NCBI GenBank assembly: GCA_947383005.1 | Contig: CANDBT010000030.1 | Location: 1-56,087, forward strand | Direction: 5' to 3' | Length of the DNA: 56,087 nt | DNA from: an uncultured bacterium | Lineage (GTDB): Bacteria; Bacillota; Clostridia; Lachnospirales; Lachnospiraceae | Shown here: positions 2,935 to 42,336 of the stretch, piece by piece | Layout of the letters: each line of letters opens with the position of its first letter | How positions within the stretch are numbered: the first letter of the stretch is position 1 | Translations under genes and position numbers: made by a program | Notes under the pieces: generated by a model | The model's database searches: none | What the model was told of the DNA's origin: nothing | The model's input: the letters and a program-made list of their open reading frames with translations, nothing else

Positions 2935-3257
2935 TGGGTATATAAACATGTAAATGCAAGGAAGAGAAAGAGTATGCCGGGGGAACATACAGAGAGCTGC
3001 CGGGAGGTGTGAGGCAGATGGGAGGACGGCAGAACTGGTCTCGGAGCAGCCGGTTGAACGAAAGAATCCTTTTTAGTAAATCCGGACGGCATTCCACCGT
3101 TATGGGGAACAAAGCCAGCCACAATACAGAAGGACCGAGCGTTGAGTCCGGGTATTTGGAGGTGGCGCAGAGAGCATGTGAAAGCATGAATCAGAGTGGT
3201 ACCGCGCGAGGTTAGCCCCGCGTCTCTGGAATTTCCGGAGGCGCGGGTTATTTTTAT
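2935..3257 (+). promoter_or_regulatory. T-box riboswitch (leucine) upstream of leuS
   Basis: A leader of about 320 bases with the T-box landmarks. A stem I region begins with AGAGAAAGAGTA. The conserved T-box core GAATCAGAGTGGTACCGCG spans 3188-3206. A GC-rich intrinsic terminator (CCCGCG...CGCGGG then ATTTTTATT) lies at about 3216-3256. The T of TGGT fits pairing with a discriminator A, as in tRNA-Leu. In the likely specifier region both CTG (3035-3037) and CTC (3040-3042) are leucine codons; CTC seems the more usual choice, but the exact specifier was not folded. Uncharged tRNA-Leu should favour antitermination and leuS expression. Confidence 0.88.
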
Positions 3258-3479: not shown

Positions 3480-5891
3480 ATGGCAAATTATAATTTCAGC
3501 GCCATTGAGAAAAAATGGCGGGAAAATTGGGAGAAAAATCCGATCAATGTAAATGACGGCAAAAAACCTAAATATTATTGTCTGGATATGTTCCCGTATC
3601 CTTCCGGAAGCGGTCTTCATGTAGGCCATTGGAGGGGATATGTGATTTCGGACGTATGGAGCCGTTATCAGATCCTTAAAGGGCATTATGTCATTCACCC
3701 TATGGGATGGGACGCCTTTGGCCTGCCAGCCGAAAATTATGCAATTAAGATGGGGATTCATCCGTCTATTTCAACCGCGGAAAATATCAAAAATATAAAA
3801 AGGCAAATTAACCAAATTGCGGCTGTTTATGATTGGGATATGGAGGTCAACACCACCGATCCGGAATTTTATAAGTGGACACAATGGATTTTTGTAAAGA
3901 TGTTTAAAGCCGGGCTGGCTTATGAGAAGGAATTTCCGATTAACTGGTGCCCGTCCTGCAAGACCGGTTTGGCCAACGAGGAAGTAGTCGGCGGCGTATG
4001 TGAGCGCTGCGGCGCGGCAGTTACCAAGAAGAACCTGCGTCAGTGGATGCTGAAAATCACGGCTTATGGGGAGCGTTTGCTGAATGATTTGGACAAACTG
4101 GACTGGCCGGAAAAAGTGAAAAAGATGCAGACTGAATGGATTGGCAAATCCTACGGTGCGGAAGTGGATTTCCAGGTGGACGGAAGAGACGAAAAGATTA
4201 CCGTTTATACAACCAGGCCGGATACTTTGTATGGAGCTACTTTCATGGTACTGGCGCCGGAGCATGCTTTGGCAGCAGGGTTGGCTACGGAGGAGACGAA
4301 GGATGCGGTTGAGAAATACATCTATGATTCGTCGATGAAATCCAACGTGGACCGGATGCAGGATAAGGAAAAGACCGGCGTATTTACCGGCAGTTATGCG
4401 ATTAATCCGCTTAATGGCGCGAAGGTTCCTATTTGGTTGTCGGACTATGTGCTGGCGGATTACGGAACAGGCGCGATTATGTGCGTGCCTGCCCATGATG
4501 ACCGCGATTTTGAGTTCGCGAAAAAGTTTAATATTCCTATTATCCAGGTAATTGCCAAGGATGGGAAAGAAATCGAAAACATGACCGAGGCTTATACGGA
4601 AGCCAGCGGCACGATGATTAATTCCGGCGAGTGGAATGGTATGGAGTCTGCGGTATTGAAAAAAGAAGCGCCGGTTATGATTGAAAAGCGTGGTTTAGGT
4701 AAAAAAACGGTTAATTATAAGTTGAGGGATTGGGTATTTTCCCGTCAGCGTTATTGGGGCGAGCCGATTCCCATTATCCATTGTCCTCAGTGCGGCAATG
4801 TGGCGGTTCCGGAGGAACAACTGCCACTTACCCTGCCGGAAGTGGAAAGCTATCAGCCAACAGGTACCGGCGAGTCTCCTTTGGCGGCTATTGAAGAGTG
4901 GGTCAATTGTACTTGTCCCCAATGCGGCAGCCCGGCCAAGCGGGAAACCAATACCATGCCTCAGTGGGCCGGTTCTTCCTGGTATTTCCTTCGATATGTG
5001 GACAGCCATAATAAAGAGCAGCTGGTATCCAAAGAAAAAGCCAAAAAGTATCTGCCGGTGGATATGTATATCGGTGGTGTTGAGCATGCGGTGCTTCATT
5101 TGCTGTACTCCCGTTTTTACACCAAATTTCTTCATGATATCGGCGTGGTGGATTTTGATGAGCCGTTTATTAAGCTGTTCAACCAGGGGATGATTACCGG
5201 GAAAAACGGCACGAAGATGAGTAAATCCCAGGGGAATGTCGTTTCGCCGGATGATTTGGTCAGGGATTACGGTTGTGACTCCCTGCGGATGTACGAGCTG
5301 TTTGTGGGTCCGCCGGAGCTTGATGCCGAGTGGGATGAGCGGGGAATCGAAGGCGTTTCCCGTTTCCTGAACCGTTTCTGGAATTTAGTCCAGTCCAGCA
5401 AAGACAAGGAAGTGGAGCCGACCAGGGATATGCTCCGTCTGCGTCACAAACTGGTCTATGATATTGAGCAGAGGTTCAACCAGTTTAGTCTCAATACCGT
5501 GATATCCGGTTTTATGGAATACAACAATAAGCTGCTTGAGCTTGCCAAGAAAACGGATGGCATTGATAAGGAAACATTAAAGACGTTCACCATACTTTTG
5601 GCGCCTTTTGCCCCTCATATCAGCGAGGAAGTGTGGCAGTTGCTTGGCGGCACGGACAGCGTATTCCATGCCCAGTGGCCGGAGTGCGATGAGGAAGCGA
5701 TGAAGGACGACGAAATCGAGATTGGCGTGCAGATTAACGGAAAGGCCCGCGGGGTAGTGTCCCTGCCAGTTAATGCGTCCAAAGAGGAGGCTATTGCTGC
5801 AGGTAGGGCTGCCGTAGCCGGAAAACTTACCGGTACAATTATAAAGGAAATCTACGTACCGGGGAGAATTATCAATATCGTATGCAAATAA
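3480..5891 (+). CDS. leuS: Leucyl-tRNA synthetase
   Basis: An 803-residue class Ia aminoacyl-tRNA synthetase that charges tRNA-Leu in the cytoplasm. The HIGH-type signature FPYPSGSGLHVGHWRG lies at about residues 40-55 and KMSKS at 579-583. Between them is the CP1 editing domain with the TTRPDTLYGATFMV motif (about 249-262). The length is typical of bacterial LeuRS. The start follows AAGGAGG by about nine bases. Expression is controlled by the T-box at 2935-3257. A family A repeat begins five bases after the stop codon. Confidence 0.97.
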   Translation: MANYNFSAIEKKWRENWEKNPINVNDGKKPKYYCLDMFPYPSGSGLHVGHWRGYVISDVWSRYQILKGHYVIHPMGWDAFGLPAENYAIKMGIHPSISTAENIKNIKRQINQIAAVYDWDMEVNTTDPEFYKWTQWIFVKMFKAGLAYEKEFPINWCPSCKTGLANEEVVGGVCERCGAAVTKKNLRQWMLKITAYGERLLNDLDKLDWPEKVKKMQTEWIGKSYGAEVDFQVDGRDEKITVYTTRPDTLYGATFMVLAPEHALAAGLATEETKDAVEKYIYDSSMKSNVDRMQDKEKTGVFTGSYAINPLNGAKVPIWLSDYVLADYGTGAIMCVPAHDDRDFEFAKKFNIPIIQVIAKDGKEIENMTEAYTEASGTMINSGEWNGMESAVLKKEAPVMIEKRGLGKKTVNYKLRDWVFSRQRYWGEPIPIIHCPQCGNVAVPEEQLPLTLPEVESYQPTGTGESPLAAIEEWVNCTCPQCGSPAKRETNTMPQWAGSSWYFLRYVDSHNKEQLVSKEKAKKYLPVDMYIGGVEHAVLHLLYSRFYTKFLHDIGVVDFDEPFIKLFNQGMITGKNGTKMSKSQGNVVSPDDLVRDYGCDSLRMYELFVGPPELDAEWDERGIEGVSRFLNRFWNLVQSSKDKEVEPTRDMLRLRHKLVYDIEQRFNQFSLNTVISGFMEYNNKLLELAKKTDGIDKETLKTFTILLAPFAPHISEEVWQLLGGTDSVFHAQWPECDEEAMKDDEIEIGVQINGKARGVVSLPVNASKEEAIAAGRAAVAGKLTGTIIKEIYVPGRIINIVCK

Positions 5892-38037: not shown

Positions 38038-38076
38038 TATAAGCCGATTGATATACCTTGCTGTTTCGCAGCGGGT
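38035..38076. repeat. Half copy of MITE-like element (family D)
   Basis: AGTATAAGCCGATTGATATACCTTGC then TGTTTCGC matches one end of the element at 7703 (AGTATAACCCAATTTAAATA and onward) at most positions. The other end is absent. Confidence 0.55.
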
Positions 38077-38161
38077 TGGTTTAGCTTTTGTTGAACCATA
38101 TGGCATCAAAAATCGGGTGGGCTGCTATAAATACTCATGGGAGAAAAGAAAGGGGAACGTG

Positions 38162-39040
38162 ATGAAAAGAAGTTTATGGACAATCGGATTGGCAGGGGTG
38201 ATGGCAGCAGGGCTGGCGATGACGAGCTTTGCCGGGGAATGGCGGCAGGACAGCGTCGGTTACTGGTGGCGGAATGATGACGGCAGTTATCCGGCGTCGT
38301 CCTGGCAATGGCTGGACGGCAACCGTGACGGGGTGGCGGAGTGCTACTATTTCGGGCCGGACGGCTACATGGCAGCCAATACGGAGATAGACGGTTATCA
38401 GGTCAACAGCGACGGAGCCTGGGTGGCAAACGGCGTGGTGCAGAAGAAGACAGAGGCCGGGACGGTTGATAAAACGCAGGAGAATAAGAGGGCGAAAGAG
38501 GCTTATAAGAAAGTATTGGAAGGTGAAAATATAAATGGGTATTTTTGTCTTTTAGATATTAATCAGGACGGGGTAGAGGAAATGATATCATCGAGTTGGC
38601 AGACTGTTATTTACGCGTACCAGAATGGACAGGTAATGGAAATTGGAACGACAAGGGATGAAGGCCGTATATATGATAAAAAGAATAAACGACTGATCAT
38701 TAACTATGCCCATTATGGTATAGAAAATCGTATTGCCTATTTTTATGACGGAACACAATGGATAGAAGATTCTGCAAATTGGTACAATGACCACTGGGGG
38801 GATTTCAGCAGGCATCTGCTTTCCTATGATGCTTTTTATCAAGAGATGAGAATAGAAAGAGCATCAGTGTATAAGGATATTACGGATAAAGAAAGCGAAT
38901 ACCAATCCTATAAAGATTCATGGGAGGAATGGAATGCTTTTATAGAGAAATATGGGGATTGGGAGGATATAGAACATGATGACCGTGATACGGAAAATGT
39001 AGAAAATACTCCGGCAAACAGGGAAGCCTTATTGCGGTGA
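38162..39040 (+). CDS. Secreted protein with cell-wall-binding-like repeats (paralogue 2)
   Basis: A 292-residue paralogue of the protein at 35890. It has a signal peptide (MKRSLWTIGLAGVMAAGLAM then TSFAG), aromatic repeats (GEWRQDSVGYWWRNDDGSYP, SWQWLDGNRDGVAECYYFGP, YQVNSDGAWV) and a C-terminal domain with AKEAYKKVLEGENINGYFCL and a DINQDGVEEM loop. The first hundred residues are highly similar to paralogue 1 while the C-terminal domain is much more diverged, suggesting duplication followed by change in the ligand-binding part. ATG 38162 is preceded by AAAGGGGAACGTG. Expected at the cell surface; function unknown. Confidence 0.82.
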   Translation: MKRSLWTIGLAGVMAAGLAMTSFAGEWRQDSVGYWWRNDDGSYPASSWQWLDGNRDGVAECYYFGPDGYMAANTEIDGYQVNSDGAWVANGVVQKKTEAGTVDKTQENKRAKEAYKKVLEGENINGYFCLLDINQDGVEEMISSSWQTVIYAYQNGQVMEIGTTRDEGRIYDKKNKRLIINYAHYGIENRIAYFYDGTQWIEDSANWYNDHWGDFSRHLLSYDAFYQEMRIERASVYKDITDKESEYQSYKDSWEEWNAFIEKYGDWEDIEHDDRDTENVENTPANREALLR

Positions 39041-39178: not shown

Positions 39179-39207
39179 TTGACAAACGGAACAGTTTGGC
39201 GTAAAAT
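39179..39207 (+). promoter_or_regulatory. Consensus promoter of the metNIQ leader
   Basis: TTGACA (39179-39184), spacer of exactly 17, TAAAAT (39202-39207). The predicted transcript starts near 39214 and carries the Met-rich leader peptide, a terminator and then metNIQ. Confidence 0.88.
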
Positions 39208-39291
39208 ACGCCCATAGAGTTGAAAATTATATTTTGATGAATATTGTTTTGGCTGCTGTGCTTTAAGCGGCTGAAGAAATGGAGAACGATA

Positions 39292-39390
39292 ATGAGCTAC
39301 CAGAATAACCTGCAGATGGATATGGCTATGATGAGCGGCATGATGATGTGCATGTGCCGCATGTTCGTATGCTTAAAAAACCGAATATAA
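39292..39390 (+). CDS. Met/Cys-rich 32-residue leader peptide of metNIQ
   Basis: A 32-codon ORF starting ATG 39292 with GGAGA six bases upstream and ending TAA 39388-39390. Ten of 32 residues are Met. Codons 9-24 read MDMAMMSGMMMCMCRM, that is nine Met and two Cys in 16 codons, with a third Cys at 27. It follows a consensus promoter and precedes a Rho-independent terminator and the methionine ABC transporter genes. This is the layout expected of a translated leader peptide in which ribosome stalling at Met codons controls termination. An alternative is a small Met-rich metal-binding protein, but position and the pairing options (see the attenuator feature) favour a leader. Confidence 0.75.
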   Translation: MSYQNNLQMDMAMMSGMMMCMCRMFVCLKNRI

Positions 39391-39504
39391 CTGCAGGGAT
39401 TGTGAAAAGCCGAAGATAAGCTTGAAGCTGGGTAGAGAGTTGTGTGAATCGTTCGCTAGAGATAGTATAGCTAATCGCAAACCTGTATGGTTTGCGATTT
39501 TTTT
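39309..39504 (+). promoter_or_regulatory. Putative transcription attenuator of metNIQ (methionine-responsive)
   Basis: Segment 1 CCTGCAG (39309-39315) ends one base before the first internal Met codon. It can pair perfectly with segment 2 CTGCAGG (39391-39397), which starts right after the stop codon. Segment 2 continuing to 39405 can instead pair with the 5' arm of the terminator: 39392-39397 with 39482-39487 (one G-U pair), and 39400-39405 (TTGTGA) with 39475-39480 (TCGCAA, one G-U pair). That arm otherwise forms the terminator AATCGCAAACC (39473-39483) with GGTTTGCGATT (39489-39499) plus a T run to 39504. A hairpin GCGGCA/TGCCGC (39335-39340 with 39355-39360) lies among the Met codons. A ribosome stalled at codons 9-11 would cover segment 1 and favour antitermination; one at the stop codon would cover segment 2 and favour termination. 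Confidence 0.65.
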
Positions 39505-39552
39505 ATAGGAAAGTGCGTCCTATAAAGCAAAAACGCTCTGCGAGGATGCGCA
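39500..39552 (+). repeat. Family B repeat, copy 5
   Basis: TTTTATAGGA...TCCTATAAAG hairpin with a GTGCG centre, then AAAACGCTCTGCGAGGATGCGCA. It follows directly on the attenuator terminator and overlaps its T run. Confidence 0.65.
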
Positions 39553-39606
39553 TTTTGTTCTTTGTATTGTATTTTTAAGCATAACACCAAAAAGGAGGGA
39601 TGAGCA

Positions 39607-40626
39607 ATGGCGTCAGAGGAACCAATCATCCGTTTGCGGAATGTAGGAAAGAAGTTTGCGACGGCCAATGGCACGGTGGTGGCTTTGGAGGACATCAATC
39701 TGGATATCCAAAAGGGAGAGATATTCGGGATTATCGGCCTGTCGGGAGCGGGCAAGAGTACCTTGGTGCGGTGCATCAATATGCTGGAGACACCTACAGC
39801 TGGGGAGGTGATTTTTGAAGGAGAGGATTTGGCTGTACAGAATAACCGGCAAAAGAGGATGGCCAGGCGTTCTATGGGAATGATTTTCCAGCAGTTCAAT
39901 CTGCTTGCCCAGCGCAATGTGCTGAGGAATGTCTGTTTCCCGCTGGAAATTGCGGGGGTGTCCCGTCAGGAAGGGAAAAAACGGGCGATGGAGCTTTTGG
40001 AGCTGGTGGGATTGGCCGACCGGTCAGGGGCTTATCCGGCTCAGCTTTCCGGCGGGCAGAAGCAGCGGGTAGCGATTGCCAGGGCCTTGGCGACTAACCC
40101 CAAAGTGATTTTGTGTGATGAGGCTACCAGCGCCTTGGATCCCAACACCACGAAATCAATTTTGGCTCTCTTGAAAGAGATTAATAAAAATCTGGGAGTT
40201 ACCGTGATTGTGATTACTCATGAAATGTCGGTGATTGAGGCGATTTGCGACCGGGTGGCGATTATTGACCAGAGCCATATTGCGGAGATCGGCACGGTGG
40301 CGGAGATTTTCTCCGAGCCGAAGTCGAAAATCGGGCGGCAGCTAATCTTAGGAGATGCCGTCAACCAGGTGAGCTTCAGTGATTCCCGGCAGATCAGGAT
40401 TATTTTTGACGGACGGGAGTCCACGGAACCGGTGATTTCCAATCTGGTCCTGGCCTGTAAAGTCCCAGTAAACATTATGTATGCGGCTACCAGGGATATC
40501 AAGGGAAAGGCCATGGGCCAGATGATTATTCAGCTACCAGAGGATGAGGCGGACGGGCAGCGGGTACTTAATTATCTGAAAACGGTAAAGATACCTTTTG
40601 AGGAGGTGGATAAAGATGCAATTTGA
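39607..40626 (+). CDS. metN: Methionine ABC transporter ATP-binding protein
   Basis: A 339-residue ABC ATPase that powers import of methionine through MetI, with MetQ as binding protein. Walker A GLSGAGKST is at about residues 43-51, the signature LSGGQKQRVAIARAL at about 145-159 and Walker B VILCDEATSALDP at about 166-178. The C-terminal NIL domain (about 265-339), which senses intracellular methionine in MetN proteins, is present. Start follows AAAGGAGGGATGAGCA. It overlaps metI by 11 bases. A Met-rich leader and attenuator precede it. Confidence 0.94.
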   Translation: MASEEPIIRLRNVGKKFATANGTVVALEDINLDIQKGEIFGIIGLSGAGKSTLVRCINMLETPTAGEVIFEGEDLAVQNNRQKRMARRSMGMIFQQFNLLAQRNVLRNVCFPLEIAGVSRQEGKKRAMELLELVGLADRSGAYPAQLSGGQKQRVAIARALATNPKVILCDEATSALDPNTTKSILALLKEINKNLGVTVIVITHEMSVIEAICDRVAIIDQSHIAEIGTVAEIFSEPKSKIGRQLILGDAVNQVSFSDSRQIRIIFDGRESTEPVISNLVLACKVPVNIMYAATRDIKGKAMGQMIIQLPEDEADGQRVLNYLKTVKIPFEEVDKDAI

Positions 40627-41281
40627 TGCGGTAACGGCAGAGCTTTTAAAGACGGCAGTATGGGAGACGTTTTATATGGTGGCGTTGTCTTCTTTTCTGG
40701 CTTATGTGATTGGGCTTCCCTTGGGAATTATCCTGGTGGTGACCGATAACGGCGGGATTTATCCGATTCCCTGGCTGCAAAAGGCTTTGGGGTTGGTGAT
40801 CAACCTGCTCCGTTCTGTTCCCTTTTTGATTTTGTTGTTTATCGTGCTGCCTCTTTCCAAAATCGTTATCGGCACACGTATCGGTTCCCCGGCGATCGTG
40901 ATTCCCCTGACGATTGCGGCGGCGCCTTATATCGCCCGGGTGGTGGAATCTTCTTTTCGGGAGATTGATCCGGGAGTCATTGAGGCGGCTCAGTCTATGG
41001 GGGCGTCGGTCTGGCAGATTATCTGGAAAGTCCTTTTGCCGGAGTCGAAGCCGTCGCTTTTGCTGGGCGGTGCGCTGGCGGTGACGACGATACTCAGCTA
41101 TTCGGCTATGGCTGGTTTTACCGGTGGCGGCGGACTGGGAGCGGTGGCGATTAATTATGGCTATTATCGGTATGAACCGGGCCTTATGTGGATTGCCGTG
41201 GTTTTGTTGGTGGTGATGGTGCAGATTATCCAGGAGGCCGGAAACTGGATGTCCAAAAAAGGGGATAAACGGATACGGTAA
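40616..41281 (+). CDS. metI: Methionine ABC transporter permease
   Basis: A 221-residue inner-membrane permease with about five transmembrane helices and the MetI pattern: ETFYMVALSSFLAYVIGLPL (about residues 17-36), NLLRSVPFLILLF, and the EAA-loop VIEAAQSMGASVWQIIWKVL (about 122-141) that contacts MetN. ATG 40616 lies inside the end of metN, preceded by GAGGAGG, and gives translational coupling. It carries methionine (probably both D- and L-, as in the family) across the membrane. Confidence 0.94.
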   Translation: MQFDAVTAELLKTAVWETFYMVALSSFLAYVIGLPLGIILVVTDNGGIYPIPWLQKALGLVINLLRSVPFLILLFIVLPLSKIVIGTRIGSPAIVIPLTIAAAPYIARVVESSFREIDPGVIEAAQSMGASVWQIIWKVLLPESKPSLLLGGALAVTTILSYSAMAGFTGGGGLGAVAINYGYYRYEPGLMWIAVVLLVVMVQIIQEAGNWMSKKGDKRIR

Positions 41282-41427: not shown

Positions 41428-42336
41428 ATGAAAAAATCAATTCTTATTACGGTGGCAGCTTTGGCCGCCTTATCGTTGACGGCCTGCGGGGGAGGCAGCA
41501 GCGAAACTACGGTTGCGTCTACGGAAGCGGCATCATCCGCGGAAAAGGCGGATGACGGTGAGACGAAGGAAGAAAAAGAGGCAGAGAAGCCGGAAGCGCC
41601 GGCAGAGCTGAAAAAGATTGTGGTGGGAGCCAGCCCGGCGCCTCATGCAGAGATTTTAAGGGCGGCTGCGGATGTCCTGGCCGAGAAAGGGTACGAGCTG
41701 GATATTAAAGAATATGTGGATTACATTCAGCCGAATCTGGCTTTGGAATCAGGGGATTTGGATGCCAACTATTTCCAGCATTTGCCGTATCTGGAGTCTT
41801 TCAATGAGGAAAACAATACTAAACTGGTCTCTGCGGCGGCTATCCATTATGAGCCATTCGGTATTTATGCCGGCAAAACCGCTTCTCTGGACAAGTTGGC
41901 GGACGGCGCCAGAGTAGCCGTCCCCAATGATACCACCAATGAAGCCAGGGCTTTGCTGCTTCTGGAGGCCCAGGGGCTGATCAAGCTGAAAGAGGGGGCA
42001 GATTTAACCGTAACCAAAAATGATATCGTGGAAAATCCCAAGAACCTGGATTTATATGAAGTAGAGGCTGCGCAGATTCCGCGGGTAGTTGAAGATGTGG
42101 ATATCGCGGTAATCAACGGGAATTATGCTATTGAAGCAGGATTTAAAGTATCGGAAGCTTTGGCAGCGGAAGATTCCGAGTCGATTGCGGCAACTACTTA
42201 TGGCAATGTCCTGGCAGTCCGGGAAGGCCACGAGAATGACGAGGCTATTCAGGCGTTGGTTGAAGCATTGACCAGCGATGAAGTGAAAGCTTATATTGAG
42301 AGCACCTATGACGGAGCCGTGGTGCCGCTGTTCTGA
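41428..42336 (+). CDS. metQ: Methionine ABC transporter substrate-binding lipoprotein
   Basis: A 302-residue NlpA/MetQ-family lipoprotein, anchored outside the membrane, that delivers methionine to MetNI. A lipoprotein signal ends LSLTAC with Cys20 as the lipidated residue. A charged Glu/Lys-rich spacer (about 25-55) is followed by the mature domain, which starts LKKIVVGASPAPHAEILRAA and includes YVDYIQPNLALESGDLDANY and FQHLPYLESFN, characteristic of MetQ. The start follows GAGGAGGAAATGAACT. It completes the metNIQ operon, separated from metI by a 146-base spacer that contains a hairpin. Confidence 0.94.
   Translation: MKKSILITVAALAALSLTACGGGSSETTVASTEAASSAEKADDGETKEEKEAEKPEAPAELKKIVVGASPAPHAEILRAAADVLAEKGYELDIKEYVDYIQPNLALESGDLDANYFQHLPYLESFNEENNTKLVSAAAIHYEPFGIYAGKTASLDKLADGARVAVPNDTTNEARALLLLEAQGLIKLKEGADLTVTKNDIVENPKNLDLYEVEAAQIPRVVEDVDIAVINGNYAIEAGFKVSEALAAEDSESIAATTYGNVLAVREGHENDEAIQALVEALTSDEVKAYIESTYDGAVVPLF

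Follow-up and report, generated by a model that had tools for sequence, protein, structure and literature searches.

The metNIQ genes of an uncultured Lachnospiraceae bacterium are very probably controlled by a ribosome-mediated transcription attenuator, which senses methionine through the charging of elongator tRNA-Met. The window, i.e. the whole stretch of 56,087 nucleotides that was analyzed (contig CANDBT010000030.1 of assembly GCA_947383005.1, with promoter, leader and metNIQ on the forward strand), contains a short, methionine-rich open reading frame (ORF) upstream of metN. By its predicted anatomy, with an ORF, alternative pairings and a terminator that can be read from the DNA and are conserved together with the link to metN, we file this leader as a leader-peptide attenuator. 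When methionine is ample, the ribosome would reach the leader stop codon and cover segment 2, and the terminator would form. When charged tRNA-Met is scarce, the ribosome would come to wait at the internal Met codons that it meets earliest, where a wait should be productive, covering segment 1 and opening a hairpin termed P1. The freed segment 2 could then pair with segment 3 before the 3′ arm of the terminator exists, and RNA polymerase would proceed into metN. In the case of no translation at all, segments 1 and 2 would pair and transcription would terminate. We infer from this arrangement which signal is sensed, in which direction control acts and that read-through occurs in the cell.

Methionine is an awkward case for an attenuator, since it also starts every peptide. 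Starvation may therefore halt initiation, to which this RNA would respond with termination, and a working switch should require initiation to persist. The leader poses a testable question, namely whether charged elongator tRNA-Met can be lacking while initiation still suffices to read the leader.

The leader ORF and the metNIQ locus

The putative promoter consists of TTGACA (39179–39184), a 17-base spacer and TAAAAT (39202–39207); a scan recovered it at 39179–39207 with 11/12 consensus matches, where an earlier, sequence-only reading had placed it. Shuffles of the region contained on average 1.7 promoter-like sites (at least 9/12 matches), so the scan alone is little proof; promoters that look alike by eye occur in many of 31 leaders inspected. 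The −10 element is spanned by a near-palindrome, GGCGTA-AAA-TACGCC (39198–39212), which could be an operator or merely a constrained promoter. In 13/43 leaders, a loose form is present no more than 90 bases before the ORF, in some with matched changes (AGCGTA-AAA-TACGCT in L024 and L028). The element was rejected as the mark of a regulon: the exact copy is the sole one in its own genome, and a one-mismatch copy (L083) has no evident methionine gene among the ORFs judged by eye.

The ORF itself (39292–39390) comprises 32 codons and TAA (MSYQNNLQMDMAMMSGMMMCMCRMFVCLKNRI) and follows a Shine-Dalgarno-like TGGAGA (39280–39285); purine-rich sites alike precede the ORFs of relatives, as judged by eye. 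Codons 9–24 contain nine Met and two Cys, in full agreement with the sequence-only reading of length, Shine-Dalgarno and composition, and translation of this short ORF with its excess of regulatory codons (9 Met/16 codons) is predicted. Its methionine content is beyond chance: among 1544 six-frame open stretches of at least 20 codons in the window, the leader ORF alone exceeds five Met per 16 codons, and the maximum in 30 Markov-simulated windows was never above 5.

For comparison, 43 leaders were collected (the window's included), 35 from genomes of the window's family and 8 from named records; L118 (with the same peptide as L117), L107 and L111 are not among them. All 43 share the peptide pattern, lie upstream of metN and have 6–11 internal Met each. 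The majority pattern of 31 aligned peptides reads MxxxxxMQMNMxMMxGMMMxMCRMFVC, with M14, M21 and C22 invariant and C27 nearly so, while both termini vary, the C-terminal tail in a clade-dependent manner. Met is kept at codon 11 in 39/42 leaders and at codon 14 in 35/42 (codon 9 was fixed by the anchor used for these counts and is uncounted). Since both positions lie outside segment 1 and the seven pairs of P1, their retention points to selection on the Met codons in their own right.

Family searches identified the genes downstream of the leader as MetN/MetI/MetQ, so that the operon appears to serve the leader's own amino acid. The gene metN (39607–40626) encodes a methionine ABC transporter ATPase with a C-terminal NIL domain and matches TIGR02314 (E 8e-104, under the curated cut-off) and PF09383 (NIL, over its cut-off). 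It is followed by the permease gene metI (40616–41281), which matches NF008049 (E 9e-59; 198.8 bits, cut-off 212) and PF00528, and by metQ (41428–42336) for a substrate-binding lipoprotein, which matches PF03180 (E 4e-88, over its cut-off) and TIGR00363 (under its cut-off). Because the NCBIfam cut-offs were missed although the family matches are clear, methionine as the substrate of metNIQ is what we infer from homology.

Alternative pairings and ribosome-placed folding

The fold of positions 39220–39510, terminator included, beat those of 200/200 dinucleotide shuffles (z −3.3). Between the ORF and the first gene lies an intrinsic terminator with its T run (39473–39504), consisting of an 11-bp stem with a loop of 5 (39473–39499) and seven T (39498–39504), two of which are shared with the stem. 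The scan located a terminator-like hairpin in 43/43 leaders, with that of L094 placed by hand and that of L099 having 7 pairs when ungapped. Segment 1 (CCTGCAG, 39309–39315) stands directly 5′ of the Met codon at 39316, and segment 2 (CTGCAGGGATTGTGA, 39391–39405) directly 3′ of the stop codon. Segment 2 can pair either with segment 1 or with segment 3 (39473–39488), i.e. the terminator 5′ arm and loop, and its pairing with the 5′ arm comprises two blocks of six pairs with a small loop between them. The sequence-only reading had described both adjacencies, the two blocks and the terminator in these terms, and the coordinates bear it out apart from the overlap of two T with the stem; the 1:2, 2:3 and 3:4 pairings of the attenuator anatomy it had proposed also recur in relatives.

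Segment 2 has the consensus TGYATGGATTGTGA. Its pairing with segment 3 holds in 496/574 cells from 41 of the 43 leaders (L065 and L122 have a segment 2 or terminator too diverged and were excluded here, from the 1:2 counts and from the ribosome-placed folds); the set includes the near-duplicates L092/L096, L058/L091 and L117/L120, and cell counts do not represent independent events. Compared with shuffled segment-2 regions, the 2:3 duplex energies have a mean z of −2.1 (range −5.4 to 0.7). Segment 1 corresponds to codons 7–8, mostly ATGCAG or CTGCAG, and pairs with segment 2 in 224/246 cells, compared to 33–119 after sliding by 1–3 bases. In the free RNA, segment 1 is predicted to mask segment 2, with a modelled 1:2 pairing above 0.5 in 28/41 leaders; for this figure, as for the codon profile and the shuffle control given below, the position assigned to segment 2 was wrong in a few leaders (clearly so in L059), with the window's leader unaffected.

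Swap tests between species gave p 0.028 by energy and 2227/20000 by pair counts for the 2:3 antiterminator, which is exclusive with the terminator (coevolution test non-significant), and 1496/20000 for 1:2, a weak or absent sign of coevolution. The tests are weak for both pairings because both sides hardly vary, and the two predicted pairings therefore rest on conserved complementarity and hardly on covariation. A comparison of related Lachnospiraceae, as the sequence-only reading had suggested, revealed conservation of Met codons and pairings, but hardly any covariation in 1:2 and 2:3. Segment 2 is kept after the stop codon, across it, or within the ORF in three reading frames (CMDC, VWIV and LYGL), which implies that it is kept as RNA. 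Its core starts between 23 bases before and 12 after the ORF end in 40/41 leaders and 23 after in L110, and the stop codon is placed such that a terminating ribosome would hide it; in 7/41 leaders, segment 2 begins past the modelled footprint of that ribosome.

Within the Met codons, we found the additional hairpin P1 (39335–39360, with arms at 39335–39341 and 39354–39360), which was absent from the sequence-only reading and which joins codons 15–17 with codons 21–23. In 35 of the 43 leaders, 242/245 cells pair, and three of the seven pairs show two-sided exchanges between G-C and A-U. Only 9/20000 shuffles of 13 distinct stems match the observed pairing, a figure that ignores relatedness and concerns a stem chosen from the same sequences. 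An eighth, outermost position pairs in 8/35 only and is uncounted. The eight leaders omitted from the count (L040, L061, L062, L063, L092, L096, L099 and L110), whose arms are unmatched by codon, all form another hairpin there. The covariation implies that RNA structure accounts for much of the conservation seen at residues 15, 16, 22 and 23, and the predicted hairpin thereby explains part of the conservation of non-Met residues. As to its role, our guess is a polymerase pause or the bringing together of segments 1 and 2.

Whether the switch depends on the position of the ribosome was addressed by folding each transcript as far as the last base of the terminator loop while keeping the bases under the ribosome unpaired, which gives the equilibrium fold of a partial transcript rather than its kinetics. 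The antiterminator score is the summed pairing probability between segments 2 and 3 divided by 14 positions, and may slightly exceed 1. Its mean was 0.14 with no ribosome (above 0.5 in 4/41 leaders) and rose to 0.61, 0.57 and 0.55 when the A site was placed on the first, second and third internal Met codon (above 0.5 in 27, 25 and 24 of 41), compared to 0.15 with the ribosome at the stop codon (above 0.5 in 6/41). Two further footprint sizes left this picture unchanged. For the window's leader, the scores were 0.00 when free, 0.76–0.83 at Met 9–14 and 0.01 at the stop. When the ORF was shuffled, the mean gain at the second Met dropped from 0.38 to 0.04 (12 control sets, −0.02 to 0.11), and a gain above 0.3 was seen in 21/41 native leaders versus 53/492 shuffled ORFs. 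In the codon profile, scores were mostly low for waits further along the ORF, where 1:2 presumably re-forms once the ribosome has passed. Altogether, these models support a switch that depends on ribosome position.

The full logic (free and stop scores below 0.3, and one of the first three Met above 0.5) was found in 21/41 leaders, including that of the window, and 20/41 deviate from the attenuation model somewhere. Depending on the footprint, the score at the first internal Met is at most 0.5 in 12–16/41. None of the first three Met exceeds 0.5 in 11/41, with all values below 0.2 in L023, L030, L058, L062 and L091. A score of at least 0.3 without ribosome was obtained for L034, L055, L068, L092, L099 and L110, and one above 0.5 at the stop for L056, L068, L092, L094, L096 and L110. 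These deviations may reflect model error or real drift.

The same folds bear on a role of cysteine, which could be sensed alone or together with methionine and would be compatible with a methionine attenuator. Each leader has 1–7 Cys, with C22 invariant and C27 nearly so among the 31 aligned peptides, and cysteine is a precursor of methionine. However, C22 lies within a P1 arm, and a ribosome waiting at the first Cys at or after codon 15 gave a mean score of only 0.20, above 0.5 in 6/41 leaders versus 27/41 at the first Met. The antiterminator would thus stay mostly off during a wait at this codon, contrary to the co-signal suggested in the sequence-only reading; cysteine as the main signal was rejected on the basis of the folds, and we consider cysteine sensing in either form unlikely. 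This estimate overlaps with that for methionine attenuation, as the mechanism would be the same, and the likelihoods given for the alternatives need not sum to one.

The strong peptide pattern QMNMxMMxGM..MCRMxxC, with its invariant M14, M21 and C22 (31 aligned), could also indicate a nascent-peptide arrest, in which methionine, SAM or a different ligand causes the Met/Cys-rich peptide to stall the ribosome from within the tunnel, the stall being read by the same RNA switch. Part of this pattern can be traced to the RNA: residues 15–16 and 22–23 are covered by P1 and change together (G16/R23 to S16/C23 with G-C to A-U), and Q8 is accounted for by segment 1. Moreover, the N and C termini vary, and a modelled wait near the conserved C-terminal part does not free segment 2 in most leaders. 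We therefore regard arrest as quite unlikely and favor a wait for charged tRNA-Met.

Distribution among relatives and other RNA regulators

We read the upstream regions of 30 of the 65 metN matches listed, and a leader with the same peptide pattern was present in 18/30. It precedes 18/19 metN genes of at least 70% identity and 0/11 of at most 63% identity (one of these eleven, L045, has 272 upstream bases only). Orthologs with no such ORF or pairings in the leader had been named by the sequence-only reading as evidence against itself; 18/19 keep the Met-rich ORF and the pairings recur. The exception, L039 from the same genus, has a promoter and a terminator-like hairpin recognizable by eye at 1340–1480, without the Met-rich ORF and segment 2, and is a natural loss of the leader.

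A peptide profile searched against 299 genomes of the family returned 17 loci at E up to 0.0141, i.e. the window and 16 others, all 16 directly 5′ of metN. Weaker hits (E at least 0.017) were rejected as leaders, with 0/13 of those fetched adjoining metN and one lying near an ABC ATPase of 23% identity. Across the order (392 genomes), 10 hits within the family precede metN, and six hits outside the family, none near metN, were judged to be chance. A DNA pattern searched against a species genome collection (84,980 species by its description) matched 30 places, 27 of them with metN; of the remaining three, two lie at the edge of the retrieved DNA and one is chance-like. Named carriers include Hungatella hathewayi, Hungatella effluvii, Enterocloster hominis and Candidatus Ventrimonas merdavium, with Hungatella and Ventrimonas belonging to the Lachnospiraceae.

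This distribution, in which the confident matches precede metN, also speaks against the view that the ORF encodes a small protein with a function of its own, such as a metal binder rich in Met/Cys, and stands before metNIQ through operon structure alone. The spacing of Met and Cys may resemble that of copper-binding peptides, but the ORF is separated from metN by a terminator, conservation of segment 2 extends over three frames and the C-terminal tail varies by clade, which renders such a protein very unlikely.

Established RNA regulators of methionine genes are the S-box (SAM-I) and the T-box, in which RNA alone senses SAM or uncharged tRNA without a leader peptide. The leader had no match in Rfam (E up to 1), none to the SAM covariance models and none to the T-box model RF00230. 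A translation-independent riboswitch or plain constitutive terminator is scarcely credible: the leader is structured and 6/41 leaders score at least 0.3 for the antiterminator without a ribosome, but Rfam gives no match at E up to 1, and the ORF, the Shine-Dalgarno-like site and Met codons fixed relative to segment 1 are conserved. The window's sole T-box (2950–3230, RF00230, 108.8 bits) is followed by an ORF at 3480 that reads by eye as leucyl-tRNA synthetase. The one SAM-I riboswitch found in the window's own genome (L001, 1501–1698) lies 5′ of an ORF that reads by eye as metK.

S-box and T-box do control the same kind of gene as the Met leader would. Among 12 leaderless metN loci searched against Rfam, SAM-I precedes metN in L044 and a T-box in L049, with no match in the other 10. 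As these are 2/11 of the distant metN loci, with S-box or T-box instead of the leader, they hint at regulatory replacement. On balance, we lean slightly towards a broader interpretation, in which the leader represents a complete methionine attenuator class confined to one Lachnospiraceae branch, apparently inherited with metN and replacing S-box/T-box control of metNIQ. Such a class would read a shortage of elongator tRNA-Met while fMet-tRNA initiation continues, and its Met codons would double as P1, which may time or arm the switch.

Known attenuators and minor features of the locus

Leader-peptide attenuators are textbook systems. Those of enterobacteria (trp, his, leu, thr, phe, ilv) combine an ORF rich in regulatory codons, 1:2/2:3/3:4 pairings, a stop codon beside segment 2 and an intrinsic terminator. 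The Lachnospiraceae leader shows the same anatomy but differs in using Met, over codons 7–24 that overlap a covarying hairpin, and in that it would control an importer.

The sequence-only reading had considered attenuation by leader peptides best known from proteobacteria, which requires correction, as Firmicute cases are published (PMC2965389, PMC5794164, PMC9413887, here and below as far as their available text goes). For the ilv-leu operon of S. aureus, Leu/Ile ribosome-mediated attenuation has been proposed with supporting mutants; likened here by its description, it differs in amino acids and operon (PMC5794164). His leader peptides with a terminator have been predicted comparatively in Bacilli, Eubacteriales and Erysipelotrichales (PMC2965389, PMC9413887), with an antiterminator also predicted (PMC9413887); these differ in the amino acid, histidine, and in their His-codon runs (PMC2965389, PMC9413887). 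The surprise is therefore the amino acid, not the phylum.

Partial precedents exist for methionine as well. A Met-bearing leader before metNIQ of Streptomyces lividans TK24, metL (MSTTSDRTPATEATTTPGARCMCRRMCAF), is termed an attenuator by its authors (PMC8079986). In contrast to the present leader, its transcript is leaderless with two internal Met and three Cys, and in the available text the authors report no typical Rho-independent terminator and describe no antiterminator (PMC8079986). For a Streptococcus fthC uORF with a terminator-like stem, indirect sensing of methionine has been proposed (PMC11109978). There, the speed of initiation via tRNA-fMet is the mechanism put forward, and the available text describes no Met-rich ORF (PMC11109978). 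A 2005 survey of Actinobacteria, in its available portion, reports no conserved RNA regulatory structures 5′ of methionine operons (PMC1262725). Within the open-access literature, which leaves subscription journals largely outside, the matches listed contained no full methionine attenuator and no account of this leader. What appears new is methionine as the regulatory amino acid together with a hairpin within the regulatory codons, the published precedents being partial. Some gut Lachnospiraceae, for example Hungatella, thereby gain a predicted control of methionine uptake that is absent from Rfam.

Two further observations concern the surroundings of the leader. The stretch between the terminator and metN (39498–39555) recurs dozens of times, both in its own genome and in those of other members of the genus. 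A 451-base query gave 35 own-genome matches including itself and, among the matches listed, all were to this stretch, which contains the inverted repeat TTTATAGGA/TCCTATAAA at 39502–39526. On the other side of the leader, the upstream neighbor (38048–39040) carries a choline-binding repeat (PF19085).
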